From positions 3,410,001 to 3,474,000 of the forward strand of contig OY727093.1 of assembly GCA_963402885.1 (NCBI GenBank): a DNA stretch of 64,000 nt. Reading direction: 5' to 3'. This stretch comes from Antedon bifida (taxonomy: Eukaryota; Echinodermata; Crinoidea; Comatulida; Antedonidae). Under the pieces are notes generated by a model. It ran no database searches, was not told where the DNA came from, and saw only the letters and a list, made by a program, of their open reading frames with translations. Both the position numbers and the translations under genes were made by a program. Shown piece by piece: positions 3,693 to 63,577 of this stretch; the first letter of the stretch is position 1, and every line of letters begins with the position of its first letter.

Positions 3693-4685
3693 TCTAGTTT
3701 TGAATTAAGCAATTGTTCGAGTTGCGAAAGCCTTGTACGTTGTGGATTGTAAGTATAATAGGCAAATACACAAACTGTAGCCCTAATACATGTAAATCGT
3801 TTAAAGCTGACTTACATACTTTTATTATTATTATTTTTATTAATAAGTAGAACAAATTATTGCCAAAAATATTTGCGTTTAGGCCTATCGATGTAGAAAT
3901 AAAATGACCTATTGATGCCTATTGATTTTCTACAAAATTAAAAAAACTATCGACATTAGTTTAAAGAAGTCGACAGGTTGTCGACAAGACGTCACGTCAC
4001 CTACAGGGAGTTTATTTTAGTTATTATAGAAATGTAAACCAGATATATTGATTTAATGTATGATGTGTGAAATGTTTTTAAATTATAGGACAAACTTTTA
4101 CAGCATTATTGATTCATAAAGTTTAGTTTATGACTGTCGTAAATCTGAGCAAGATCTTTCGCAGCTGCCGCCACGCGAGCGATTATCAATTAGTAGAATT
4201 AAGATTAAATATCATTTGTCTTAAATTAATAACCGTTGGGCGTAAATCAAGCATGAAATATGATTTAGTGGGAGGTTCGTTAGATTAACGCTCAACATGT
4301 AATAAAATCGTTTTTGTTTTTATTTTTTAAAAGATTGTGTTACTTTAAATTTGATACATTCATAATTATTCCAAAACCTTCATTTATTTTTCTTGTAGAA
4401 TGTTTCGTCATCATCTTCACACTGAGTTTTATTTTATAGTTAGAGTAGTACCCCTCATAAAAGGGTCACCTTCGGGACCCAACGATGTGACGTCCCTTTA
4501 ATGAGATATCCTGAACTGGGATTGGCTTTAGTGTTAAATCATAAATGCTCTTGTTCATTTTACTGAATAGGAGTCACAGGTTCTCTACCATTGAAATAAG
4601 TATAACATATAAAAAAACTCTAAAAGTCTTTACAATAGTTGTATATTTTCTTATGAAGTAAAAAAATAACAGTGGAAAAAAAATT

Positions 4686-4758
4686 CGATCCTGCCAGGAC
4701 TCGAACCTGGAATCCCCTGATTCGTAGTCAGATGCCTTATCCATTGGGCCACAGGACC
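4686..4758 (-). tRNA. tRNA-Arg(ACG), copy 1
   Basis: The minus strand folds into a full 73-nt cloverleaf. The 7-bp acceptor stem pairs GGTCCTG with CAGGATC and is followed by discriminator G. The anticodon arm has the 7-base loop CTACGAA, giving anticodon ACG (Arg, read as ICG). The T arm carries GGTTCGAGTCC, which doubles as the B box. A run of eight T follows on the transcribed strand and would end Pol III transcription. It is identical in sequence to the five other intact copies in the window. It faces away from copy 2, so the two form a divergent pair. Confidence 0.95.
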
Positions 4759-5146
4759 AGATACATGAAGATGTTGATTATGGGTTTGAAACACTGATTC
4801 ATAATCGGGCAATCGTGTCCAAATCAAAATGCATGAAATTACTGGTAATTAATTAATAATTAATTTCTTTAATACTGTGTAATAAATGGGCATTATAAAC
4901 ATCATTGACTGTGTAAAATAACTGACTATTTCTGCAAGAAAATATGGGGTTTTTTTTCTGGTATATATTTATCCAATTATGTATTTTCGAATTTTTCTTT
5001 TTTTATATGTTTTAACATTCCTTACTTTAATTAATTTTAACACTTTAAACCGTGTAACTGGACCATTTTGAAAAGCAGTACTACGTTACTGAAATGCAAT
5101 CCAGTCAAAAGAAAGAATAAGTAAAGAATAGTACAATGTAATAACA

Positions 5147-5219
5147 GGTCCTGTGGCCCAATGGATAAGGCATCTGACTACGAATCAGGGGATTCCAGGT
5201 TCGAGTCCTGGCAGGATCG
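5147..5219 (+). tRNA. tRNA-Arg(ACG), copy 2
   Basis: This is an intact 73-nt cloverleaf identical to the other copies, with anticodon ACG at positions 34-36. It is preceded by AACA, as in the other plus-strand copies, and followed by a seven-T terminator. It is the right member of the divergent pair with copy 1, about 390 bp away. Confidence 0.95.
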
Positions 5220-5545
5220 ATATTTTTTTCCTGATTAAAGTGCTAATCAAAATGTATTTATTTAAAATAATAATTGTTTTAGTGACATTTTAGGCGCATT
5301 TTTATTTTAATTAACAGGAAAAAAAAAACAAGAGAAACGAAACAATTTTTCAAATATGGAGTGGACAGATAATGTACCATGCTGTTTTTTGTGTGTGGGT
5401 AGGGGGAATGGGGGTGGGTGTTGGTAACACGGTTTAGCAAAGTAAGTGGGGTTCCTTCATATATATAAAAATGCAGTTTGCTTCGGCCGAGTCATAGCTA
5501 TAACATACAACAAAGTTTATTTTGTGAAAAATAAACAAAATTATG

Positions 5546-5618
5546 CGATCCTGTAGGGAATAGAACCCAGAATCCCCCTATTAGTAGTCGGTTGCATTAC
5601 CCATTGAGCCACGGGACC
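5546..5618 (-). pseudogene. Decayed tRNA-Arg copy, left member of pair 2
   Basis: The length matches the intact tRNA exactly and the register is kept, but there are many substitutions. The anticodon loop reads CTACTAA instead of CTACGAA and the T-arm consensus is damaged (GGTTCTATTCC). It lies divergently to the intact copy at 5,770. The changed loop is shared with the decayed copy at 6,123, so that change came before the cassette duplicated. Confidence 0.8.
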
Positions 5619-5769
5619 TGATACGCGTACTGCCTGCTGATAAGTCATGAACTCTATCTTAATCAGACAACGTCTACAAATCACACTTCCATGACATTAC
5701 TGGTAATTAATAATTAATTACTTTAAATACCGTATATTGACATTAAAAAACTCGTTAACGTATACAACA

Positions 5770-5842
5770 GGTCCTGTGGCCCAATGGATAAGGCATCTGA
5801 CTACGAATCAGGGGATTCCAGGTTCGAGTCCTGGCAGGATCG
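5770..5842 (+). tRNA. tRNA-Arg(ACG), copy 3
   Basis: This is an intact cloverleaf with anticodon ACG, identical over all 73 nt to the other copies. It has a T-run terminator directly downstream. It is the right member of the first duplicated cassette. Confidence 0.95.
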
Positions 5843-6122
5843 ATATTTTTTCACTACTTATTCCATGCAAGGAAAATGCATTGGGTAGTACTACAGTTAC
5901 ATGATGGAAAGACAATGGTATTAATTGGGTAGGCAGTGTCTCGCACATCATTTTGGGCTCCATTGAAGTGCAAAAACCGTCTTGCAGTTTCAGCCACAGG
6001 CTACGTAAAAACAGGGTTTAGCAAACTAAGTGGGGTTCCTTCATATATATAAAAGTGTAGTTTGCTTCGGCCGAGTCATAGCTATAACAAAGTTTTTTTT
6101 GTGAAAAAGAAACAAAATTATG

Positions 6123-6195
6123 CGCGCCTGCAAGGAATAGAACCCGGAATCTCCCTATTAGTAGTCGGTTGCATTATCCATTGAGCCACGGGACA
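6123..6195 (-). pseudogene. Decayed tRNA-Arg copy, left member of pair 3
   Basis: This is the sister of the decayed copy at 5,546 and shares its altered anticodon loop CTACTAA. The acceptor 3' strand is further changed to GGCGCGC and no longer pairs with the 5' strand. It lies 152 bp from, and divergent to, the intact copy at 6,347. Confidence 0.75.
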
Positions 6196-6346
6196 TGATA
6201 CACGTACTACCTGCTGATAGGTCATAAACTCTATCTTAATCAGACAACGTCTACAAATCAAACTACCATGACATTACTGGTAATTAATAATTAATTACTT
6301 TAAATAACCTATGTTGACATTACAAACCTCGTTAACGTATACAACA

Positions 6347-6419
6347 GGTCCTGTGGCCCAATGGATAAGGCATCTGACTACGAATCAGGGGATTCCAGGT
6401 TCGAGTCCTGGCAGGATCG
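6347..6419 (+). tRNA. tRNA-Arg(ACG), copy 4
   Basis: This is an intact 73-nt gene with anticodon ACG, identical to the other copies and followed by a T-run. It is the right member of the second duplicated cassette. Confidence 0.95.
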
Positions 6420-6632
6420 AAATTTTTTTCACTAATTATTCCATGCCAATATACTGCATTGGGTAATACTACAGTTACATGATGGAAAGACAATGGTGTG
6501 GATTGGGTAGGCAGGGTACCACACATAATTTTCGGCACCATGCAAGTGCAACAATCTCTGTGAGTCTTCCATGTTTCAGCCATAGGCTTACGTAAACACA
6601 TTTTTAGAAGAAAAAAAAAGGCCAAAATATTG

Positions 6633-6700
6633 CGATCCAGTCAGGACTCAAACCTGGAATTCTATGATTCGTAGTCATGCCTTATTCATTGGGTCAAAAT
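6633..6700 (-). pseudogene. Decayed tRNA-Arg copy, left member of pair 4
   Basis: The minus strand keeps the ACG anticodon loop and most of the T arm. It has lost bases in the anticodon and D arms, and the acceptor 5' strand is unrecognisable. It decayed separately from the two other left members, because its anticodon loop is unchanged. It faces away from the intact copy at 6,848. Confidence 0.7.
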
Positions 6701-6847
6701 ACATCATATATTGATTAGATTATATATGAATGCTGACTGTGTTTCATAATGGTAACAGTTAAAACATTAAAAAATGCGAAATTGGTAAGTGTCGAATTAA
6801 TAATTAATTTGTTTAACAGTAACGTTTGTGTACAGAATGCCACAACA

Positions 6848-6920
6848 GGTCCTGTGGCCCAATGGATAAGGCATCTGACTACGAATCAGGGGATTCCAGG
6901 TTCGAGTCCTGGCAGGATCG
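6848..6920 (+). tRNA. tRNA-Arg(ACG), copy 5
   Basis: This is an intact cloverleaf with anticodon ACG, identical to the other copies and followed by a six-T terminator. It closes the cluster on the right. Confidence 0.95.
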
Positions 6921-11929: not shown

Positions 11930-12233
11930 ATGATGATAATCATAATGATGATGAAGATGGCGAGTACTATTATGATGAGGTTGATGATGTTGTTTATGAG
12001 ATGACGACGATGATGATGACGACGATGATGATGACGATGACAATGATGATGATGACGATGATGATGACGACGATGATGATGACGACGATGATGATGATTA
12101 CAATGATGACGATGATGATGATGATGAAGATGATGATGATGACAATGATGATGACGATGACAATGATGATGACGACAATGATGAAGATGATGATGAGGAC
12201 GACGACGACAACGACGAAAACGACGACGATGAT

Positions 12234-12265
<32 letters not shown>

Positions 12266-12345
12266 CGACGACGACGATGATGATGATGATGATGATGACG
12301 ACGATGACGATGATGAAGACTACGAGTACGACGGTGATGTTGGAG
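11930..12345 (+). repeat. GAT/GAC trinucleotide microsatellite
   Basis: About 400 bp consist almost only of GAT and GAC triplets with a few GAA and CAA units, purest between 12,001 and 12,320. All six frames are open over long parts, giving apparent Met/Thr or Ser/His homopolymer proteins that are artefacts. A similar GAT/GAC/GAA run lies inside the last-but-one coding exon of the CDK4/6 gene. Confidence 0.9.
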
Positions 12346-22239: not shown

Positions 22240-25188
22240 TTTTAAAGCTCATGTTTTTTAATTAAATAAAGATAAATAATACAAGCAAAGCAATAAATAG
22301 AATGTCTCAACAAACGATGAGGGAGATAGTTTAATTACAAGAGGGGTAGTCACCGGAACCGAAGAAAATTTAGACAAATCCCCCCCCCCCCCAGTAAAAT
22401 CGGACAATTGCACCGCACTTTAATAAATTATCACGATACACGATTATAATTTGTATATCAACTAGGCCTACTATGATTTATAGTCATGATCTTTACTAGT
22501 CTTACTTTAAACAACTGGTAATTTTTAGTATTTTAAAGGTTTCTGTTTTTATTTTAAATCGATTGATCGATCGTTATTTATTGATATTTTGAGACGTTTG
22601 GGGAATATAACACACTATACAATGGGTGATGAACATGGGTGTATGCCTAATGTTTTAGTCGCGAAAGTGTACCTTAATGCAAAGTTTAGCTCTATGTATT
22701 ACTGCAGCAAACCGTACCCTTGACGATTTGTCTAAAAAATACCCCATTAGATCTACCCTATAAAATCATCTTATAACTACGCTACTTTAGGACCTGTTAA
22801 GGGGGTGTAAAACTGAAGGCCTAAGGTACTTGAAGAGTCTGTTCTATCCTATACCCGATAAAATATTATAACTATTAACTAAGTATTAACAAAAATATAG
22901 ATCTGTATTATGTAACAATTCCAAGCACTGGTTACGATCGAAGTTAAACTACAGGTGACCTCTCGATAGCCGGTGTGACCAGGTGGTTTCTTGGTACCAG
23001 ATGTTCAGTTCTCTTAGAAATCAACTAAGTTTCCTAAGTCTACCTGAAGAACTGCCAATATCGAATGACTTTTGGCTAAAAAGTCCCACGGAAATCAATC
23101 AACCAGAACCAGGTACATTAAACAACTCGAGAGCGTCCCTAGCAACTTTCTCACGGTCCTAAAACAATCTAAACCATAAAAGCACGCCACCGTTCGCTTG
23201 GGTATAGGACAATAGTATTCTACTTCTGTGTAATGAGGCATATAACGATACAATAATGTTAGTGGCTTCATCACACTATGTTTCTTATGTATAGGAATTA
23301 ATTGTTTCGTGTCGGTTCATTTGTCGCGAACTATAGCGTATTTTCCACCTCTTATTAGGTTAGATGACGACACAGGCAAGAGAGGGAGTCCTTTCCCATG
23401 GCGCTCAGCCAAGTGAGTGGTTGCTTGACAATGGAATCTTTCAGGTGTAAACGCACCTTTGTGATGTCATCGCTAGTGAAAGCAAGCCAGCGCACAATTT
23501 GTGCATCGCTATTCGGATCTGTTCACGCGATTAAAAGGCAACCGCGTCCGCTCATTACCATTCCCACACACTTGTAAAGAACTGAAAGCTAAACAACTTT
23601 TTGACAACTGCACACGAACCGGCGGTGTCATTTTCGTATGACCATCCCACTTCATTATCGATTGTTAGTTTAAGATGACAACAATAATACTTGTATGACA
23701 GATCTGTGTAATAACAAGTCAATACTGAACTTTGATTCAATGTGTCAACGACCGGGCAAAATAAACCCTCACCTTTCATCATATTTTGGAGTTGTAACCC
23801 CCCCCCCCCCCCCCACTCCTATAAGTGACTAACAATTTCTTTTTATTTGAGCGTTTATTTTTATTGAACCATGTTTCATGAGGGTATCCCATCCAGCAAA
23901 GCTGATCATTGGGGCCCTAGACAATACAGTAAAAACAGTACGAAAATACATCATCATAAAAAAATTAATTATAAAAAACTACTATTATAAATATAAAAAT
24001 TGATACAATTTTTGAAAATTCTTTTTTTTTTTGGCAATTAAAAATCATCTAGAGAAATTGACAGATGAATGATGTTCATTGGTTTTGAGTGGGTCTTTTT
24101 AACAAAATGTACATGCTTTGGCGTAGGTTCACGATCCTACTTAACTTGGTATTATTAGGCGTGTATGTATAATATTATAATAGGCATATATAAACGATGA
24201 GCTTGAACACCCCGACATACATACGTAGGCCTAACCATTTATATTGCGCTTTATATATAAAGAAATATCAAGGCGCATTAAACTAAATGTTAAGCAACGT
24301 TATGAAAAAGTGTAATTATAGGAGTTTTTTTAACTTAGGGATTTGACGCCTCACGAATATGCGCACATGGGGACCGACGACATGGAAGGACTGTGTGGGT
24401 GTCCCCCGTACGCCCTTATGCCTAGCTAGGCTAGGCTACATTTATTCATTCATCCCGGTAATGTAAAATTTCACTGAAAAGTGAAAGGTATGTTATATCT
24501 TGTTTATCTTGTCTTGTTTATCTCATAAAGGTAAAATAAAGAAGGATATTTTTTATTCAACATAAAAGCAACACCCTACCGTAGTCCGTCTTGACTGGAG
24601 GTCAACAACGTAAGTATAGCCTACCTCGGACAACCATCACAGCTAGCTAGGCTAGCGAGGATAGCCTAGGTCTAGAGATACTAAATTTCTTCTTGCAAGA
24701 AATGTAACATGGTAAACAGTTCCTCCTTAAAATCCAGTACATTTTAAATAACAGAACTCTACATTCTATATGGAATTTATGATTTGATTTGCGACAGACG
24801 GGGTGTCAAATTTGTCTTCAAATTTACCGGCTTTTTTTCATCTTGAAATCGTCTGTTCGATGTCTAGCGCCCTCAGTATACAATTATAATTTTTTTCCCT
24901 AATTTTTTGATATAAAATCAAAAATTCTTTTTTTTTACTGCTATAAAGAAATTTCCTTCACTGCACTATTATTACCAAAATAATGTACAGTTTTGAAAGT
25001 ATTTATTCTTTATAATTTTAGGCCTACTGGAAAATACATAGGCCTAGGCCTACACTAATTATTAATTTCCGTACATATACAGGTAAAATGGATAAAAAAA
25101 AACCAACTGATTATACGTTAGCGGTGTAAAACATACAGAAACACATAATTTTAAAAAGTTCACAAATGTAAAAAAAAAAAAAAAATAT
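22240..25188. other. Intergenic; LINE-tail-like repeat inside
   Basis: This includes two poly-C tracts (near 22,380 and 23,800). Around 23,830-23,990 is a stretch resembling the antisense 3' end of a LINE: it is T-rich at its left edge and carries TTTCATGAGGGTATCCCATC. A GC-richer patch at 23,340-23,580 has a 59-residue frame without a recognisable domain. Confidence 0.35.
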
Positions 25189-25261
25189 CGATCCTGCCAG
25201 GACTCGAACCTGGAATCCCCTGATTCGTAGTCAGATGCCTTATCCATTGGGCCACAGGACC
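25189..25261 (-). tRNA. tRNA-Arg(ACG), copy 6, solo
   Basis: This is an intact 73-nt cloverleaf on the minus strand with anticodon ACG, identical to the five copies about 18-20 kb to the left. On the transcribed strand it is followed by a long T-run, which appears as the A-run before 25,185 on the plus strand. It has no partner nearby, so it is either a separate copy event or what is left of another pair. Confidence 0.95.
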
Positions 25262-26749
25262 AGTTATGAATCATACGTGGGAAATGGCTACTTAATCACA
25301 TGATCGAAAATCACATAATACATATGATTATAATTTAGGTAATTGTCTCAAAAAAACATTTATATCTACCATATTTAAATACTAAGTTAATGATAATTAT
25401 AATAGAAACCTCTACAATGAAAAAAAGAACGTTAATAATTAATTATAACTTTATCGAAGCATGACGTCATAGATTGTTGGGATAAAACTATAGAGGGGGT
25501 ATATCCAATTTTTGTAAACGCCAGGAGAAGAAGATTCAATGGTGGGAGCATGCAGCTGACACTGAGTACTTACTGTACTGTAGAGTTAGTGCGTACACAG
25601 GTAGTCATCATTTCCACACAAAAACAATCAGCAGTAGTGATGATATAATATTATACAAATTAACTTTCGATTTCTAGGTTCGGTTTTCCAAAATTTAACC
25701 GAAAATTGTGCATTATTCAAAATACATTTAGGCCTACGTTAACAGTGTGCACTCTATTCACCTGATACAATTATTTTTAGCATATACTATATACACCAAC
25801 GATCAATGATAAATCAAAGTAGTCAGCGATAAATTGACCCTTTTACTGACTGACCACCACTGACCACAAACGTGTTGATTTTTTATGATTCTGTATAGTT
25901 CATTCATCCTATATAAAACAATTTAATTTTGCTTTAAACTTTACACAACGCAAAGCAATTTACAATGTCATAGTCAAAATATCCCATTATTTTTATCACG
26001 CTATAAAATCCCACTTAATGTTTGCTTTAAAGGGTTAATTAACTACCGGTAGATCTTAGGCAAAATATTTACAAATGTGTAACGTTAGAATGCCATTACC
26101 CTCTGTATTTAGTTCAAGGACATAGTAATTATTATATTATATTATGACTTCCTCATACCTTGGACCATGGAGAAATCTCCACGCTTGGACGAACCTATGT
26201 TCTTAGCATAACACGCTGCATACGTATATACACGTACTTGTCTAGCTAACACTCTTAATACTAAAAATAAAACCTTCTATGATACACTTTAGTTCAATTC
26301 TATGATAGTAACTGAAGTATTGTGAAAGGAACCCGACAACAAAATGTATATTTTTACTGTATTCTTAAACTTCAACGTTTCATTTTATAAAGTAGGCTCC
26401 TGTAGCAGCACCATAATACCTACATAGATGGTCAAAAATATTAGTGATAATCACGAAGAATTTAATTTCTGATGACTTAATATTTCTTATTCATATTTAT
26501 TTAGTACTCAAACAACAACAAAAACCAGAGATAATCGTAAGTCGGAAATATAAGTGAACTTAATTCTTCATCAATAGTTAATATATACTGAACAATACAA
26601 CCATATAAAATGTATACACACTAGATAATACTATAATATTCGAAGATATGCGAAATAAGTAAAGAAAGATCTACACGCGCTCTGGACAAACAAATACAAC
26701 ATACAGCACAATACAAATGTATTGTTTACTTAAGTCTTCTATATAAACA
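25262..26749. other. Intergenic; no gene seen
   Basis: This is AT-rich unique sequence leading into the promoter-like patch. No exon, RNA gene or clear repeat was seen. Confidence 0.4.
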
Positions 26750-30000: not shown

Positions 30001-32791
30001 TAGTGTAAAATAATAACATCATTTTCATAAAAGACAAAACGATGTTGCCCTCATGAAAACTTTGGGAGAAACAAGGTTTTGAAAGAATAGACAATACTGT
30101 AGGTGAATTTGTTGTGAATATTTGTTGCTTCTACTGTACCAATCAACTATCTGAGAAATTAACCAAATGTAAACACTCCAGAAACCAGAATTTCCAAAAC
30201 TGTTTTATTATTAATATTTACAATTTATGAACACCCAGTCGTTTGAATAAGCCCAATGATTTTGGTTTGGAGAGTATACTTTTTCATGATTAACAACACT
30301 TATATTTAAATATAAACAAGTATTATCGGCCAAACAAAATAACAAATTTAAGATGTAAAGCTACAGTTCTGTCAAATAACATAAAGATAAAAGAACAAAA
30401 ATTAACTTGTTGCTCTGCTGAAGACTAACAACACATTGTAACAGATATTTAAAAACCAATCTAAATGACAATAACAGAGTTGAACCCCAGACCTGGTGGA
30501 TTGGGAAGTGTGCACTTTGCTGATAAACCACAATAAGTGCTGATGTAAAACCTACTCTACTTTAAAAAGATCTAGATTATATAACTGATTAGAGTCAGAG
30601 ATGAATCCCCAGACTTTGGTATTGGGAGGCTTGCACTTTGCTGATATACCATACTAATGTAAAAATCTACTGTACTACAGTAGTTAGTTAGTAGGCCTAC
30701 AGTTTAATCGTGGAGGAGTAAGTTACTCCATGGTTTAATACAACACATGTTCCTCTTAAAATTAGCACAATATGATTTTTCTTGTTGTTTTAATGATGAT
30801 TTATTGCTCAATTAGTTAGTTTGGTTTTACAGATCTTAAGTAGGTTCCACAAATTATTCACAATGTTCCTCCAGAGAAACATTCAAACAAAGAGAATATT
30901 TTAAAATCAGGAAGTTGGCAGTAAAACTTATCCAAACAAAGAAACACATTACAGTTGGTATACTTTCATCATGAGGTTCTTTTAGGGGTTTTTTTTGTCT
31001 TCTTTTCCAAAAAACAATTTTTGAATACTATACTTTATTTTTATAATAAATAAGATGCTAACTGTATGACAGAGTTTAGTCTACAAAAGTTGGCAAAAAT
31101 TATTTTACTGGGATTTACCAAATGTGTTTGTATGATAATAGCAAGCTTTTAAAACAAGTGGCGCAGTGCAGCGTGTACGACGACGTGCAATCTAGTATGT
31201 AATTTACAGGTGCATGGGGATACAAAAAACTTCAATGTACAGTTGCATGGAGGGAGTCAACGCAAGGCAGTTTGTGTAGGTACTTTTGACCATGTGATAA
31301 AGACAATCGCGTCTTGTACAGCTTCTAATTCGAGGCGCAGAAGTCATCCAACAGCATTCATTCATGGTTGATTGACTTCTCACCTCGCTGCAGTCGCTAC
31401 TTTGAAAGCTCTGTAAAATAATTTGATCTAGATCTAAAATTTAACCAGATATCGCTACTGAAAGACTTTTTTAGTTGTAAAATGAGCTCAATTTTGTAAA
31501 CTTTTCTGCCTGTGCTCTTTCTGTCACTAAATAAACTCTAAATAGAGATGTCAATAATACAGATTTGATATTTTAGAATGGGCTTCAAAGGTGGATCAAA
31601 GATTTTTTGTTAGGAGCCCTATCTATAATCTAATAATAGTGTGTAAAAGTTATCTAAAAGTTGTCATTTTAGCTGTCAAAAATGGGGAGGCCCAAGGTAT
31701 TCTTCTACTGTATAACCCAAAAAACTGTGAAATAATAATACTTAGTTCTGGTTAATGTTCTTTAATCTGGACTGAAAATTCACATCAAACAAAAAAATGT
31801 AGGCTTGGCCCAACTTTGACTATAATTCTTGTCCATGGTTTGGACAAATTGGAGAGCTGTCCATCTACAAATTATGACCCTTAGAAAAACCAAATTCATT
31901 CCAGTTCATAAACAATCTAGTTTGTAACCTTTTATCCTCTGGAAAAGGGAGTGCCAAAATACCTAATTATCTACACTGTTAAAATGATTGGATGTTGCTT
32001 TCATCTTTCAAATACTATCAAACATTCTATCAGAGAATACCAATTTGCAAACTGACAGTTTTATCAGCAGAAAAATTGTAAGAATTTATGCCAAATATTT
32101 GTATAATCATTTAATAATATTGTAAACTAACCATCTCCAATGTTTTGCTTTAGACTCTGAAGGTTAGAAGGCATCAGAATGTAAGGAGAAAATTGAAACC
32201 ACATGTTGAACTATCTTCAGGTCCCACACACACTTGTCTGTGAAGTCTATGCTTAAATTTTGTTGAAGTTGACTGGCCTAACTGCATTCTATATTGTTCG
32301 TGAGATCTGATCAGTAATTACTAATTATTTAAGTAAGTAATTAGCGCTCTCTTTGTTTAGAAGATATATCTAAAAAGGTTTTTGTTAAAATATTTTCAAT
32401 TAGCAAAAATCATTAAAACAACAACAATACATCTTTAATAAATTTATTAATTTAACCAAGGAAATCTAACAACATGATGTTGAGCTTCGGAGATCAAAAA
32501 GTTTATCTGTGGCTGCGACACGATCAGTTCTACGCCCTTAACGGGCACAGCACGTCGAGGATATGTCCATACTGTTGGTATTTGTTGCAGGCAGACATAA
32601 GATCAAAGGACTGTTAGGAGTTCCTATCTTGGCAAGTCTAACTCAGTGTCCTGTTAGATTGCCTTGATTTAACTAGTTAAACAAATTGTGTTATTTATTC
32701 AAAGAGGCGTGTAAAAATATCTAACTTTTTTTTTAAAGGCACTTGGCTTTACCATGTTGTGTTTGTGATATGTTTGGCCTGCTATGGGACA
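27047..32791 (+). other. Probable 5' intron of the CDK4/6 gene
   Basis: The stretch is AT-rich and ends at a pyrimidine-run acceptor (TTTTTTTTTAAAG) about 50 bp before the CDK4/6 start codon. Between that acceptor and the start lies a four-codon upstream frame (ATG at 32,754). A GC-richer island lies at 32,474-32,620. No other coding exon was recognised. Confidence 0.4.
30470..30665. repeat. Tandem duplication, about 115 bp
   Basis: Two diverged direct copies share ATTGGGA, then TTGCACTTTGCTGAT, then ACCA, and a block near TAAAA-CTACT. Each begins with a stretch like GAACCCCAGAC, reminiscent of a tRNA-type B box, so the unit may derive from a SINE. Confidence 0.55.
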
Positions 32792-42475
<9,684 letters not shown>

Positions 42476-52412: not shown

Positions 52413-55167
52413 TCAATACCATTTGTACATTTCGTCAAGTATTCCTTCAATATTAGAGCACATATCTCTGACTACAGTTATTGTTTTCTCCGAGTTTTCC
52501 AGTGCGCATTCATGTTTGTCTTTGTTGTTATAATCACTGAAGTATTTGAGCCATTCAAACTTACTATTAGTTGCGGGTTGAATCTAAAAGAATAACAACA
52601 AATGTAAAGTTGTATTATTTACATATAAGTTTAATACAATTATTAACCATGATAAATATTTGAGATTTAGCTACTTCTAAATGATACCCAATTTTGCAGC
52701 TATCACTTAAATGTTAACTAACTATCGCAAGTCATCTAGATATAAGTCTGTACATAGTGACAGTTGTAGGATCGAATGTAAATGACAATAATAGAATATG
52801 TATAAGAAAGAATCATAATACACTTACCGATACAAAGTAATCAAAAAGAAGTTTGAATTTAGTTTCAAAACCTGTCCAATTAAATCGTTTTAGTTTATCT
52901 CGCATCTGTCTGACGACAGATTTATGATCTGTGTTCCGAATAATAATGAAATCTAAAGATTTGAATCTAGGTATTTTGGGCTTGGTACTAGAGTCTGTCG
53001 GCTCTACGGGATAACCATGTTTGTTTCCAAATTTCTGCATAGCATGGTTTAGAATATTTCGTCCCTTCTGCAGCACAGTGGAGATATAATCAACTACATC
53101 GTCATCATCCATTAGAATACTGTATTCCATTTCAAGTTGGCATTTTCTTAATGCTTTTAATTCCTCACCCATCAAAGATCCATCATCAGAAGAAGGCAAC
53201 AGTTCTGCAAGTTCCTGTTTCAGATTAATCTCTTTAGTCCACTTTTTGTTACCTTTAGCGACAGAAGCAATACTTTTCAAAGCAGACATTCTCAATTCAG
53301 TGTCGTCCGTCTTTTTCGTTTCTTCTAATAATCGTTTTGCACCAATTAAACTTTCCATTTTTGTTGACTGCGTAAACTTTTCTATCGCTTTACGTTTATC
53401 TCCTGATTCTGCTGCTTTCTCTCCTTCTGCTACAAGTAAGTCCATTATAACTTGTTGACGAAGATCTTCTTGCTTTTTCGTACAACTCACGCTTCTAATT
53501 CTGTCTAGCATCTTTCTACAATCATCAAGATTACCAATCTCCAGATTTACCTTGGCGATCTTCAAACGTATCTTTGTCAACAGCTCCTGGTCCTGGTTTG
53601 TATGAGTTTTTCTAAACTCCTTCAAAGCGTCTAAAGCGTCTTCGTAGTAAGAACAAGCCTTTTCAAAGTCACCTATATCTTCATGTAACTGTGCATTTTC
53701 CATAGTCGGTTGAACTTTATCTCGACCTTTCGAATCCCGAATTTCAAAATCAAAATGTTTTTTTAAATAGGTAATTACTTTAGCAACATTGCTCTGCTGT
53801 TCATCGATAAATTCAATCGGTCCAGGAGAGTTTTTTACAAATGACTCAAGAGCAATCCTCAAACACTCTTGGTTTCTGAAAATTGCCTGATCATATTGTT
53901 GTTTTATCGATATAAAAAAACGTGCATAGTTTTGGTTTACGTCAAACTTGACAAATGGATCGTCTTTAAAATCAGATAATAGATTATCATATACGGCACT
54001 CGCATCCTCATGTTTTCCCAGAGAGAGTAAGGCCTTTGCTTTTTGCATTTTGGCTCCGACGTCAGATGGTTGCAGTCTGATGGCATTTTCAAGACACTCC
54101 AGTTGTTTGTATGTTTCATTCTTTTCTCGGTAAAGAATTGCCTCTTGAACAAAGATACACGCTGCTTCACTAAAAATTTCTTTTGCATATTCTATAATTT
54201 CATGAGCTTTTCTGAAGTATACTGAATCGTACTTTGGATCACTGCACTCCTTGTCATTTCCTTTTATTCGTTTACATATACAATCACCCATTGGGATATA
54301 GCATTGAGCTATGAGACTCAATATCTTTGGCCTAGAAGCCCCCTCCTTTGCTTCTTTGAGTAGCTTCATTATTGCGATTATACGAGGATCCTCCACGTTT
54401 TTGAATATCAGACTGTGGCCAAAATCTTGGTTAAATACTGTAATGCTCGGCGAATGTCGCTCATATTTTCGTCTGTATATATCAGCTAAGATCGCCTTGG
54501 CGTATGCATGATCTGCATCTACCTCCAAGACCTCATTCATGATTTTCTTAGTTCGCTTAAGTTCATCAGACCACTCAAACTTGTTTATATTTGTGTATCT
54601 TCGCCATGTTATGAGTCCAAGCATAAACTTCCACTCGACATTGTCTGGACATATCTCTGTTGCTTTCTCTAGCTCAGTCTCGCTTTCCTTGTACCGACAA
54701 TATTTCAACCTTGACAGCGCAAACCCTTTGGTTGCATGGACACTCGCTTGAAACTTTCTTTTATCCTCTTCTACGGAACCTTGATATTCTGTAAGAAGGA
54801 TTTTGAGATCCCTGTAATGTTCTTTCCTTTCGCGTTGGTTAGTTGTGAGCCAACACTTCAATGCCAAATATATTGATTTATACCCATCTTTGATTGGTTT
54901 AGGTATTTTATCAGGTAATTCTGATATGGCACGAAATGCTTCCTCGTTTATTTCTTTTGCTTTCGCAATATCCTTCTCATCGTTTCCTTTAAAATCTGAC
55001 ATGTATAAGTAGCTTTCGAATAAAAGCAGCTCGATAGTAAACGATTTTGTATCTTCCTGGTGTTCGGTAATTGACTGTTTCAACGATTTGAATGACTTGC
55101 TTGTATTTTCAAGTTTCCAATTAGCATGAAAGTCAACATTTTGTAAATCAATATCTTCCGATTCCAT
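52413..55167 (-). CDS. IFIT-like tetratricopeptide-repeat protein, 836 residues
   Basis: Two coding exons, 55167-52828 and 52583-52413, join in phase 0 (FDYFVS|IQPATN) and end in TGA. The ATG at 55,167 has a strong context (ACACCATGG) and lies just after an acceptor, TTTTCAG, so a longer upstream frame is not used. TPR-type helix pairs are visible at about 144-177 (ATKGFALSRL...), 210-235, 335-367, 369-400, 411-443 and 489-520. Their order and spacing, and NYARF near 413, resemble IFIT proteins, which bind foreign RNA ends in vertebrates. IFITs are about 470-490 residues. This protein has some 350 more, including a helical C-terminal part (about 690-836) that I cannot assign. RNA binding is not shown by the sequence. 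Nearby are one pseudogene copy and two fragments of the same gene. Confidence 0.88.
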
Positions 55168-55943: not shown

Positions 55944-56529
55944 ATTAACATTATAAATGCCAAAATATTGACTGCTATTACCATGGTATTCGTTCAGATA
56001 TTATACATGTATTATACTTCCAAATTGTCCTGGAAATTCCCCGCATTATACGCATGGGTGATTAACATTATAAATGCCAAAATATTGACTGCTATTACCA
56101 TGGTATTCGTTCAGATATTATACATGTATTATACTTCCAAATTGTCCTGGAAATTCACCACATTATACGCATGGGTGATTAACATTATAAATGCCAAAAT
56201 ATTGACTGCTATTACCATGGTATTCGTTCAGATATTATACATGTATTATACTTCCAAATTGTCCTGGAAATTCACCACATTATACGCATGGGTGATTTAC
56301 ATTATAAATGCCAAAATATTGACTGCTATTACCATGGTATTCGTTCAGATATTATACATGTATTAATACTTCCAAATTGTCCTGGAAATTCACCACATTA
56401 TACGCATGGGTGATTAACATTATAAATGCCAAAATATTGACTGCTATTACCATGGTATTCGTTCAGATATTATACATGTATTATACTTCCAAATTGTCCT
56501 GGAAATTCACCACATTATACGCATGGGTG
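55944..56529. repeat. Five-copy 117-bp tandem repeat
   Basis: Five near-identical units run head to tail with a 117-bp period (one unit has one extra base). Each starts ATTAACATTATAAATGCC and ends ACGCATGGGTG. Because 117 is divisible by three, a 132-codon frame stays open across it and gives a repeating hydrophobic peptide of 39 residues. This is most likely an artefact. It lies just upstream of the IFIT-like gene's possible first exon. Confidence 0.95.
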
Positions 56530-57499
56530 ACTGTATAGACAACTTGTTTAAACATGTAGTGAATCGTAAGAAAGTATTCATTCATATGATAATATAAACT
56601 AGACCATCTAGGTCGTGCCCACAGATGGTTCTCGAATACATAGTCATTTAAGCGTAAAAAAACTGGCGATTTCAAATGTACGTACCGCAGGACTATAATA
56701 CATTGTCGTTTACAGAAACGAATAAATAGACAATGATTTATGTACTCAACTGAAATTAGCACCCTTGGAATTTCTTCCGAAAGGGAAACATGTCACAAAA
56801 CTTTGTCATTTAAACAAACCCAATTTGTAACATTAGGGGTGAGGAATGGGGAAGAGGATGGGTAGGCCTACAAAGAGGAACAATTTTTAAATATATTGTT
56901 TATCCACTCAGTAACCAAATATTTGTTTCATGTTTTATAGGCCTATAAATAATATACCTATCACTAAATACAGTAAAACATTTGCAATTTAATACTATGT
57001 TAAAACTGTCACTGTCATAGTCGATTAAAATAGTAAATGTAACAATACACCACTACGACGTTTATATTTTTTGATAATTATTAATTAATACAAACGTTGA
57101 GAAGCAACTGTCAGTAATAAAGTTTATTTGTATATTATGTGTTTATAATCTAACAGGGCCTACCCACACTCACAGTAATAAAGTAAAGTTTATATATCTA
57201 ACAGTACTCACACTCACAGTAAAAAATTTGCGATTTAAATGGCGACCAAAACTGGTTAATACGAATTTAGGCCTACAGTATTGTCATACTATATCTAAAT
57301 GTTTTAAGTTTATTCTTTAAGCCCATAAATGTACCTACTTGTGTTAAACCAAATAATTATAGGGAGACTATAAGAGGTTGGAATGTTCCATTCGTCGCAA
57401 ATCAATACATTTGTATAAACGTATATTAAATCTATCAAAATAGTATTTTATTCTTCAACATTATGATGCTGTACTCGAGCTGTTCAACCAATTTCCTTT
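56530..57499. other. Intergenic; no gene seen
   Basis: AT-rich sequence with a small duplicated block around CTAACAG-CTCACACTCACAGTAA at 57,150-57,220. No exon was recognised. Confidence 0.4.
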
Positions 57500-57509
57500 G
57501 ACTCATCTA

Positions 57510-57670
57510 CATCTACACTCACACATTTGGATAAAGCAGTTAGCTATGAGACTCAAAACTCTTGGTCTAGTAGCATTTTCTTTTGCTTCGTTGAGAAGAT
57601 TCATTATTTGTACTATAGGAGGATCATTCACATTTTCGAATACAAGACTATATGAACAACACTTCGCACG
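57510..57670 (-). pseudogene. IFIT-like gene fragment
   Basis: On the plus strand AGCTATGAGACTCAA is followed by blocks like TTGCTTCGTTGAGAAG and GAGGATCATTCAC. These align with the part of the intact gene at about 54,280-54,430, which encodes residues near 250-300. The match is ragged and ends on both sides. It is more diverged than the copy at 58.9-60.4 kb, so it came from an older duplication or decayed longer. Confidence 0.65.
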
Positions 57671-58895: not shown

Positions 58896-60445
58896 TCAAT
58901 ACCATTTGTACATTTCGTCAAGTATTCCTTCAATATTAGAGCACATATCTCTTGCAACAGAAATTGTTTTTTCCGAGTTCTCCAAAGGAAGTTCATGTTT
59001 GTCTTTGTTGTTAAAATCACTGAAGTCTTTGAGCCATTCAAACTTGCTATTAGTTGCGGGTTGAATCTAAAAGAAAAAGTAAAGTTGTATTATTTACTAT
59101 GCTGGTAATAACAACAATAATTTAAAACACTTCAAATACAATGATTAGCCATGATCAATATAGTACATATTAACTGACTATCGCAACTGAGTCATCTAGA
59201 TAGGAGTAATAGTGACAGCTGTAGAATCGAATGTAAATATTTATTTATAAATAATATAATAGAATATGTATAAGAAAGAATTATAATACACTTACCGACA
59301 CAAAGTAATCAAAAAGAGGTTTGAATTTAGTTTCAAAATCTGTCCAATGAAATCGTTTTAGTCTATCTTGTATTTTGTCTGACAACAGATGTACAATCTC
59401 CGTTCCGAATAATAATGAAATCTAAAGATTTTATGAATCTACGTTTTTTAGGCTTGGAACGGGAGTCTGCCGGCTCTACGGGATAACCATATTTCTTTCC
59501 AAATTTCTGCATAGCATGGTTTAGTATATTTCGGCCTTTCTGCAGCACAATAGAGATGTTAGCAACTATAGCATCATCACCCATTAGAATGCTGTATTCC
59601 ATTTCAAGTTGGCATTCTCTTAATTCTTTTAATTCCTCACCCATCAAAGATCCATCATCAGAAGAAGGCAACAGTTCTGCAAGTACTTGTTTCAGATTAA
59701 ACTGAAAAAATGGATCGTCTTTAAAATCAGATAATAGATTATCATATACGGCACTCGCATCCTTATGTTTTCCCAGAGAGAGTAAGGCCTTTGCTTTTTG
59801 CATTTTGGCTCCGACGTCAGATGGTTGCAGTCTGATGGCATTTTCAAGACACTCCAATTGTTTCTCTGTGTCATTCTTCTTTCGGTAAAGAATTGCCTCT
59901 TGAACAAAGATACACGCTGCTTCACTAAAATTTTCTTTTGCATATTCTATAATTTCATGAGCTTTTCTGAAGTATACTGAATCGTACTTTGGATCACTGC
60001 CTGTCATTTCCTTTTACTCGTTTACGTATACAATCACCCATTCGGATATAGCATTGAGCTATGAGACTATATATATCCTTGGCCTAGAAGCCCCCTCCTT
60101 TGCTTCTTTGAGTAGCTTCATTATTGCGATTATACGAGGATCCTCCAGGTTTTTGAATATCAGACTGTGGCCAACATCTTGGTTAAATGCTGTAATGCTC
60201 ATAGAATGTTGCTCATATTTTCGTCTGAATATATCAGCTAAGATCGTCTTAGCGTATGCATGATCTGCATCTACTTCCAAGACCTCATTCATGATTTTCT
60301 TAGCTCGCTTAACTTCATCAGACCACTCAAACTTGTTTATATTTGTGTATCTTCTCCATGTTATGAGTCCAAGCATAAACGTCCACTCGACATTGTCTGG
60401 ACATTTCTCTGTTGCTTGTTTTAGCTGAGTCTCGCTTTCCTTGTG
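58896..60445 (-). pseudogene. IFIT-like pseudogene, partial copy of the neighbouring gene
   Basis: The last exon (59066-58896) is intact and 171 bp long, like its parent, with the same acceptor. The large exon ends at the same donor (59296). It is broken in several ways. Compared with the parent, about 715 bp (residues near 410-646) are missing, joining DDPFFQFN directly to LKQVLAELLP. One extra base near 59,380 shifts the frame before the donor. Small indels near 60,000 and 60,070 shift it again. The 5' part is lost beyond about 60,445, where LINE sequence begins. Similarity to the parent is high, and continues through the intron and the 3' UTR (down to about 58,560), so this was a DNA-level duplication and not a retrocopy. 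Confidence 0.85.
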
Positions 60446-61060
60446 CTGTGAAGATAAAAGTGTATTATGGCATGTGTCATTAGCGTCCTCTTGTATGGAG
60501 CTGAATCATGGACAACCTATGCTAGACAAGAAAAGAAACTAAATGTCTTTCACCTCCGCTGTCTCCGGACTATCTTAAATATCAGATGGCAGGACAGGGT
60601 AACAAACAACAGTATCCTTGATAGATGTGGCATTCCTTCGATATTTACATTAATTAGACAGCGAAGACTACGATGGCTTGGTCATGTCAGAAGAATGGAC
60701 GATACAAGAACTCCAAAGCTTATGTTGTACGGTGAGCTAGCGAATTGTAAAATATCCAAAGGACGTCCACTTTTGCGTTTCAAAGATGCATGTAAAAGAG
60801 ATTTGAAGGCAATGGACATCAATGTTAACACCTGGGAAAAAAAGGCTGATGACCGAAAATCATGGAAAGATTGTATTAAGGCAGGACTTGTACACAGTGA
60901 AGAAAGATATCGTATGGAAAATGAAGAGAGGTATCTGAAAAGAAAATCTAGATCAGCCACTGGAACTCACACAGACTCACTGGAAAACGGATGAAAATCT
61001 CTCCAATGTCGTCTCCATAGTCAATCTTGACTGAAGGATGCCTGATGACTCAACAACTCG
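60446..61060 (+). mobile_element. LINE 3' fragment (reverse transcriptase C-terminus)
   Basis: An open frame at 60,467-60,994 (175 residues) begins inside the usual LINE segment SVLLYGAESW. It contains LRCLRTIL, IRWQDRVTN, RRLRWLGHVRRMDD and GRPLLRFKDACKRDLKAMD. These are landmarks of the region after the polymerase domain of non-LTR elements. The 5' part is missing, as usual for LINE insertions. It lies opposite in direction to the IFIT-like pseudogene and exactly at that copy's 5' break. Confidence 0.9.
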
Positions 61061-61637: not shown

Positions 61638-61811
61638 CTAACAAGAGACAAATGTAATTACAAATTTGTATAATATTATGTATCTTTTTTATTTATCTTT
61701 TTGAAATGTTGATTTATAGGCCTATCTCATTTCTCCAAGCTTTTACAAAATCTTTCTTTTAAAATCTGACAGAAATTATGACATTTCTTTTAACCTGGCG
61801 GTATTCAGGAG

Positions 61812-63577
61812 TTAGAAAAGGCCGTATCCAGTTTGAGAAAGGGAAAGGCCAATACCTTGTAAGAACACCTCCCCAACAAAACATTTTTCTTCTTTGTTTT
61901 CATCTTTCAAATCAAGAGGGGCATGCCGAATATACCCAAGATCCAAATAATTTAGGTCTACGTGTATTTCCGCTTTTGTAATTAGCTCGAGCATCTTGTT
62001 TATCGTCGTAAAAATGTTCTGTGGAAACAAAGTAGAAAAAAGTACAGTATATAAAAGAAGATACAACTATTCAGGTTACAGATGAAAACACAAAAGCATT
62101 TAATTGATTTCGATTCAATACAAATGGTCATTAGATTAAAGTAAATACTTTTTTTCTGGTGACAAAAGACGTCTATAGTGACAACAAAACAAAAATGGGT
62201 TAGGTACTAAGAAAAATAATACAGTAATTACCACATCTTACACATTATGTGAGCCTTAACGTGGCTACTAGATATTTCAACAAGCCGCCAAAAAATACAA
62301 ACATAATACATGCTTTTAAATACTTTTAATGTTATGTATACCTCATTGTGAGATGTGTCTACTGCATTTCTATGCTTGCTGTTACTAATCGTGCGACCTA
62401 TATAGAAACAAACGAACATGGTATCAATCATCATCAACTTTGTCAAAACATTATTCACCAAGCTTAATGTAACATTTAAATTAAATTAATGTGAGACTAC
62501 AAGTTTAATTATAATCTTACCTTCTCTGTTTAGCTTATCAAGAGCCTCTTTGTATACCTGTTGATCAAACTGTGTCTCCCAATTCTGTTCAAATTCCTGT
62601 CGATGTTTATCTGTACACAGTATTTCGGCTATGTCTTTCAGAAGTTGCCCATTTTGATGCAGTTTCCATATTTTTGTAAGGGCTCTCGGATCAACTAAAG
62701 ATACATAGAATACTACAGATCCTGTTGTTAAATCTATAACTTCACAGCAACCAAGGTATGAAAGGTAAGATTCAATTTCTTGCAGTTTGTCATAACATAA
62801 TGCTAAAACCTCATTTGGAGATGGTTGATCTTCCGGATCCTCAGTTTTTCGTTTTCCTATAGGTATGGGTACTTTGACGACTTAAACAAAACAGATACCG
62901 GTAGTTATACATATACACTCAAAATCGTACTAAATGCGTTGTAGTAAAAACACATGGAAAATGTTTTATATTTAAAATTATATATTTTAGAATTTAGCAT
63001 TAACCAGCTACTTGTTTTAAATAATTTTGTAACAAAACAGAAAACACATACTAATGCCAAGTAGATGGTTTCTTGCCTTTTTGTTAAGACGATCTGCAAA
63101 CCTCTGTATTTTTTCTGGATTATCTTGTAGAAGTTCTTGTTTCTCCAGATAAAATACTACATCCCAGGTAGTTTCAAATTCACATTTCAAATGATAGTGA
63201 GAAATAATTCCTTTTTTTTCATCTAACCCAACGTTTCGTAATGCCTCAAACAGCCTTTTCCGATAGTCTGACAGGTGCTTTCGTCTGGCTGTATTTTGAC
63301 CTCCATCTGACATATACTGAGTTATAAGACGTTTGGCTTTTTTCAGACATGACAGATTAGCGACTTCTGATAAAAGATGAACATCATCAGATGCAATAGC
63401 CCCAATGTCCTCAAGGAAATTTAGTAAATCATTTCCTGAATCTGCCTTGGTGAGATCCTCCAAGGGTAGATTGTCAAAAAAGCAGAATCTCAACCATTTG
63501 TATTTGTGGAATGTATAGAATTCACTGAAGTCAGATTTCAAGGTCATGAATTTTGTCTCAGTTTCATTGTTTGCCAT
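61812..63577 (-). CDS. Tandem death-effector-like plus TRADD-N-like adaptor, four exons
   Basis: I assembled four minus-strand exons: 63577-63052, 62880-62521, 62397-62342 and 62018-61812. All have GT/AG borders and matching phases, giving 382 residues and a TAA stop. Residues about 12-92 look like a death effector domain (DLLNFLEDIGAIASDDVHLL). About 103-173 look like a second one (WDVVFYLEKQELL). Neither has a clean RxDL motif. Exon 2 (about 200-295) has the pattern of TRADD N-terminal domains: a strand, GSVVFYVSLVD, followed by ALTKIWKLHQNGQL. The last 87 residues are unassigned, and exons 3 and 4 are the least certain. DED pairs occur in caspase-8 and FLIP, and TRADD-N in death-receptor adaptors, so a role in assembling a cell-death or immune complex in the cytoplasm is inferred. 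The start is the only ATG ahead of the domain. Confidence 0.75.

Follow-up and report, generated by a model that had tools for sequence, protein, structure and literature searches.

Predicted Adaptor Gene with Tandem Death Effector Domains and a TRADD-N-Like Domain in the Crinoid Antedon bifida

Here, we report a gene of the crinoid Antedon bifida whose product carries two death effector domains (DEDs), probably followed by a TRADD-N-like domain of the DEDD type. The gene lies on the minus strand at positions 61812 to 63577 of a 64,000-nucleotide stretch of contig OY727093.1 (assembly GCA_963402885.1, positions 3,410,001 to 3,474,000); this stretch is referred to as the window, and all coordinates are positions within it. 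The gene and its two DEDs, taken jointly, are held with high confidence. The best explanation overall, and the one toward which we lean, is that the locus encodes a small adaptor in which tandem DEDs and then a DEDD-type TRADD-N act as a bridge. The protein seems to be a compact representative of an invertebrate DED-TRADD-N kind that has been described, and it reveals no new kind of immune system.

The gene model was re-derived exactly from the sequence. Four exons, joined in phases 1, 1, and 0 across introns of 171, 123, and 323 nucleotides (all GT-AG), encode 382 amino acids and a stop; the exons, agreeing phases, and length given in a preliminary description of this DNA were all recovered. 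Exon 1 (63052 to 63577, minus strand) opens with a start codon (A at −3, G at +4) and holds both DEDs (residues 1 to 175 plus one base of codon 176), and exon 2 (62521 to 62880, minus strand) holds the TRADD-N-like domain (residues 176 to 296). Judged by sequence conservation, exons 1 and 2 are a genuine gene, because a relative in Antedon mediterranea matches them far beyond chance. This relative (P0001) is an uncharacterized protein, isoform X2, of 366 amino acids, found in a protein search with an E value of 2.4e-91 and 54% identity across 78% of the query, and the match rules out a chance open frame for the two exons. The likeness covers exons 1 and 2 in full, beginning at the first methionine (56% identity for exon 1), and at the protein level it spans junction 1 without a gap. 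Like the window protein, P0001 has two DEDs and a TRADD-N; identical residues among those aligned number 52/84 in DED1, 38/76 in DED2, and 68/120 in TRADD-N, and the C-terminal tails differ (14/61).

P0001 was the sole relative at E values up to 0.01 (3090 candidates scored; database of 5.77 billion). A profile search with the two-species alignment gave nothing except P0001 at E values up to 10 (5345 candidates), and a PDB sequence search with the window protein gave no match up to an E value of 10. PDB matches of the two-species alignment (UBR5 and EvgA; E value, 0.23 or worse) were taken as chance. Weak Pfam matches were likewise taken as chance, because none was listed for both species: DUF4781 (E value, 0.016), GAAD (0.038), Connexin43 (0.064), DUF3142 (0.084), and EB1 (0.099) for the window protein and Rap_GAP (0.086), Spectrin_Anc-1_2 (0.1), and DUF832 (0.16) for P0001. 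Searches of P0001 in NCBIfam (EvgA model; E value, 0.099) and PADLOC (JukA; E value, 0.023) returned nothing credible.

DED1 (residues about 6 to 92; 63302 to 63562, minus strand) is supported as a death-fold domain by sequence comparison. The Pfam DED profile (PF01335) matched residues 29 to 72 with an E value of 1.1e-4, and P0001 with 1.1e-5; neither match reached the gathering score. When the DED1 profile from the two species was compared with an alignment of six DEDs, the E value was 2.6e-4, and 0/200 column shuffles attained the score; in all of these comparisons, shuffling preserves nothing but composition and serves as a modest control. Shuffles reached the score in 0/200 cases against first-type DEDs, 0/200 against second-type DEDs, and 2/200 against the DED of DEDD alone. 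Structure prediction was of low confidence at DED1 (predicted local distance difference test [pLDDT], 29 to 45 per block).

DED2 (residues 100 to 175; 63053 to 63280, minus strand) had no Pfam DED match in the window protein or in P0001 and is supported as a death-fold domain by predicted structure and one sequence test. Modelled alone, it reached a pLDDT of 90.1, and DSSP assigned it five helices at least 4 residues long, against the six expected of a DED. The best fold matches of the model were DEDs, to which it was nearer than to Death domains (DD), PYD, or CARD, and assignments as CARD, PYD, or Death domain were dismissed on that fold comparison. By sequence, DED2 matched the second DEDs of caspase-8, cFLIP, and caspase-10 (0/200 shuffles against second-type DEDs); a mixed DED profile lent no support (14/200). 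Both DEDs are still called despite the sub-threshold Pfam results, the gathering score being a curator's threshold and not a feature of the fold. The two death-effector-like domains of the preliminary description are thus upheld, DED1 by sequence and DED2 by predicted structure with one sequence test. The Pfam check that it proposed matched DED1 below the cut-off and failed to find DED2.

Tandem DEDs are likewise found in the caspase-8 prodomain and in cFLIP, whose second DED the window DED2 matches by sequence, and DEDs generally by fold. No caspase-type domain was found in the window protein, which has TRADD-N instead. A decoy resembling short cFLIP, in which a caspase-free tandem DED caps or alters caspase-8-type filaments and TRADD-N sets only location or stability, would agree with the DED2 sequence match and with the Pfam scans of the window protein and P0001, which found no protease or other catalytic domain. 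We consider it unlikely: TRADD-N is conserved about as well as the DEDs (68/120 versus 52/84 and 38/76), which points to an independent role for it. A hybrid adaptor, with a complete caspase-8/cFLIP-type tandem DED and a DEDD-type TRADD-N in one chain, is a tentative proposal that we hold lower than the general adaptor reading, because structure comparison left second DEDs and others tied as matches of DED2 and the sequence test was a post hoc one. Vertebrates have DEDD2 and cFLIP as separate proteins, which are reported to interact (PMC8195603, in part); if the hybrid were true, crinoids may display, within one polypeptide, a connection from caspase-8-type filaments to TRADD-N signalling.

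The third domain, which we take with fair confidence to be a DEDD-type TRADD-N, is the least firm of the domain assignments. Pfam TRADD-N (PF20694) matched the window domain only as a cut-out piece (E value, 0.073) and P0001 twice (E values, 0.068 and 0.019), all below the cut-off. This match is weak and is absent in the full window protein, which is the reason that the domain is held at lower confidence. Comparison with a DEDD profile gave better support (E value, 0.0018; probability, 14.7%; 0/200 shuffles). BLASTP of P0001 against a DEDD sequence placed its top score on a mismatched region (E value, 0.003), and the in-register TRADD-N match had an E value of 0.023. When DEDD was added to the alignment, a profile search found 481 proteins among 7995 scored candidates, dominated by DEDD; the best 120 of 481 were listed, and the other 361 may include intermediates from invertebrates. 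The DEDD-type label reflects the match to DEDD alone, and the ACT-like fold of TRADD-N is only suggested by structure prediction. The TRADD-N-like domain placed after the DEDs in the preliminary description is therefore better backed by profile comparison than by Pfam; structure prediction, also proposed there as a check, returned a death fold for DED2, low pLDDT for DED1, and a suggestion of the TRADD-N fold.

DEDD and DEDD2 (FLAME-3) also combine an N-terminal DED with a C-terminal TRADD-like_N, and the TRADD-N profiles match. The linker of DEDD is long, with basic stretches. Where DEDD has one DED and this linker, the window protein has a second DED; with two DEDs, it is DEDD-related and not a DEDD orthologue in architecture. 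A nuclear regulator of the DEDD/DEDD2 sort, working in apoptotic cells at chromatin or in the nucleolus, would account for the DEDD type of the TRADD-N and for the basic KRK and KRHR stretches that follow the DEDs in P0001 (read by eye). We find it slightly less likely than the decoy, as the window protein retains only KRK and has two DEDs against the one DED and long basic linker of DEDD.

Returning to the adaptor, we infer from the computed domains that the two DEDs would enter or nucleate DED filaments together with FADD-, caspase-8-, or cFLIP-like partners and that TRADD-N would bind a second partner, much as vertebrate TRADD-N recruits TRAF2 (PMC8195603, in part). The outcome would be caspase recruitment coupled to another death or immune signalling branch. 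We rate this bridging mechanism itself at somewhat under an even chance. If the adaptor reading is right, this compact natural protein, with tandem DEDs and TRADD-N in one chain, would allow a straightforward test of whether DED filaments are the means by which TRADD-N proteins act. It would also place in crinoids an invertebrate DED-TRADD-N member that seems to lack a large variable effector part. TRADD is likewise an adaptor in which TRADD-N accompanies a death-fold domain, but its order is reversed, with a C-terminal Death domain, and its classic clade reportedly occurs only in vertebrates (PMC8195603, in part). Pfam gave no Death domain match in the window protein or P0001.

The preliminary description knew of no protein with this exact order, a statement that proved mostly wrong against the portion of PMC8195603 consulted. 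DED-TRADD-N units are described there in cnidarians, bivalves, amphioxus, and others, with DEDD2 and NCOA6 TRADD-N clades; echinoderms have 18 to 23 DEDD2-clade copies, and the sponge Amphimedon has N-terminal units of 1 to 3 death-fold domains followed by TRADD-N. Members of these expansions likewise place one or more death-fold domains before TRADD-N, but many add variable C-terminal or flanking domains, unlike the window protein, and DEDD2-clade genes are linked with retrotransposons. Several death folds ahead of TRADD-N are described for the sponge NCOA6 clade and not in the DEDD2-clade account, and the pairing of tandem DEDs and a DEDD-type TRADD-N is absent from both accounts in that portion; newness is not claimed. 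Open-licence literature yielded no tandem DED together with TRADD-N and no death effector domain in crinoids.

Exons 3 (62342 to 62397, minus strand) and 4 (61812 to 62018, minus strand, with the stop) lack support, and the C-terminus of the model is tentative. Of the three junctions proposed in the preliminary description, junction 1 is supported by the gapless P0001 match, and those leading to exons 3 and 4 are unconfirmed. Neither exon has a clear relative in the P0001 tail; exon 3 offers an open phase, and exon 4 an open phase with a pyrimidine-rich acceptor. Open phase alone means little, because, of 100 AG sites within 2 kb past the exon-2 donor, 42 would be followed by an open stretch of 15 codons or more; unspliced, the exon-2 frame meets a stop 11 codons on. 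The exon-4 tail matched no Pfam family at an E value of 0.01, and its codon score, trained on one tetratricopeptide repeat (TPR) frame, was weak (equalled by 8.7% of 552 stop-free background windows, versus 2.5% for exon 2). A candidate polyadenylation signal (AATAAA; 61688 to 61693, minus strand) lies 3′ of the proposed stop. The gene could belong to the larger DED-TRADD-N expansions and be truncated or wrongly modelled, its C-terminal sensor or effector part lost or lying in unfound exons, as the unsupported tail and the variable C-terminal domains often carried by described relatives (PMC8195603, in part) would allow. This is quite improbable, since P0001, in the one isoform seen (X2), also ends 63 residues past the aligned TRADD-N part, with no further Pfam match at an E value below 0.05.

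The neighbouring genes bear on one further proposal of the preliminary description, that the adaptor may supply the signalling half of an immune module that works without interferon and includes an expanding IFIT-like family on the same strand within 7 kb. Rather than an expanding family, we found one intact TPR gene (52816 to 55167, minus strand; open frame of 784 codons with matches to TPR families), one decayed copy (59284 to 60448, minus strand; lacking residues 1 to 157 and 421 to 645, with an in-frame stop and a frame change), and one 55-residue fragment of a third copy (57491 to 57655, minus strand). No IFIT chain was among the 10 PDB matches of the intact TPR protein at E values up to 10, and its best match to human IFIT1 had an E value of 0.029 over 84 columns (single pairwise comparison). 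IFIT is reported as a family whose origin is tied to jawed animals or vertebrates; the sea urchin has no identifiable IFIT gene, and TPR look-alikes of the acorn worm and lancelet fall outside the family (PMC3688568, in part). Open-licence literature yielded no IFIT in an echinoderm and invertebrate context. The module thus has in its favour a shared strand and the 6.6 kb from the intact TPR gene to the adaptor gene, and such proximity is no evidence of shared function. With the intervening copies decayed, no close IFIT match for the TPR protein, and the family reported from jawed animals, the proposal is unsupported and in our judgment highly improbable.

A tandem repeat with a 117-bp unit occurs in five copies (55944 to 56530; 98% matches) at roughly 0.8 kb upstream of the intact TPR frame. 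On the plus strand, a 178-codon frame (60458 to 60994), without a Pfam match at an E value of 0.01, starts some 10 bp away from position 60448, where the decayed TPR copy is truncated; by eye, we take it to resemble the end of a long interspersed nuclear element (LINE)-type reverse-transcriptase protein.

Elsewhere in the window, an RNA family scan found only tRNAs, namely, six tRNA-Arg(ACG) genes of equal Rfam score, of which five cluster within 2.3 kb (4685 to 6920; one of these in the opposite orientation) and the sixth is 18 kb away (25188 to 25262). A long ATG/GAT-type trinucleotide array (11930 to 12320) is open in several frames. A plus-strand exon at 32681 to 33043 matched a protein kinase (E value, 1.1e-12) and, by eye, resembles the start of a CDK4/6-type kinase.
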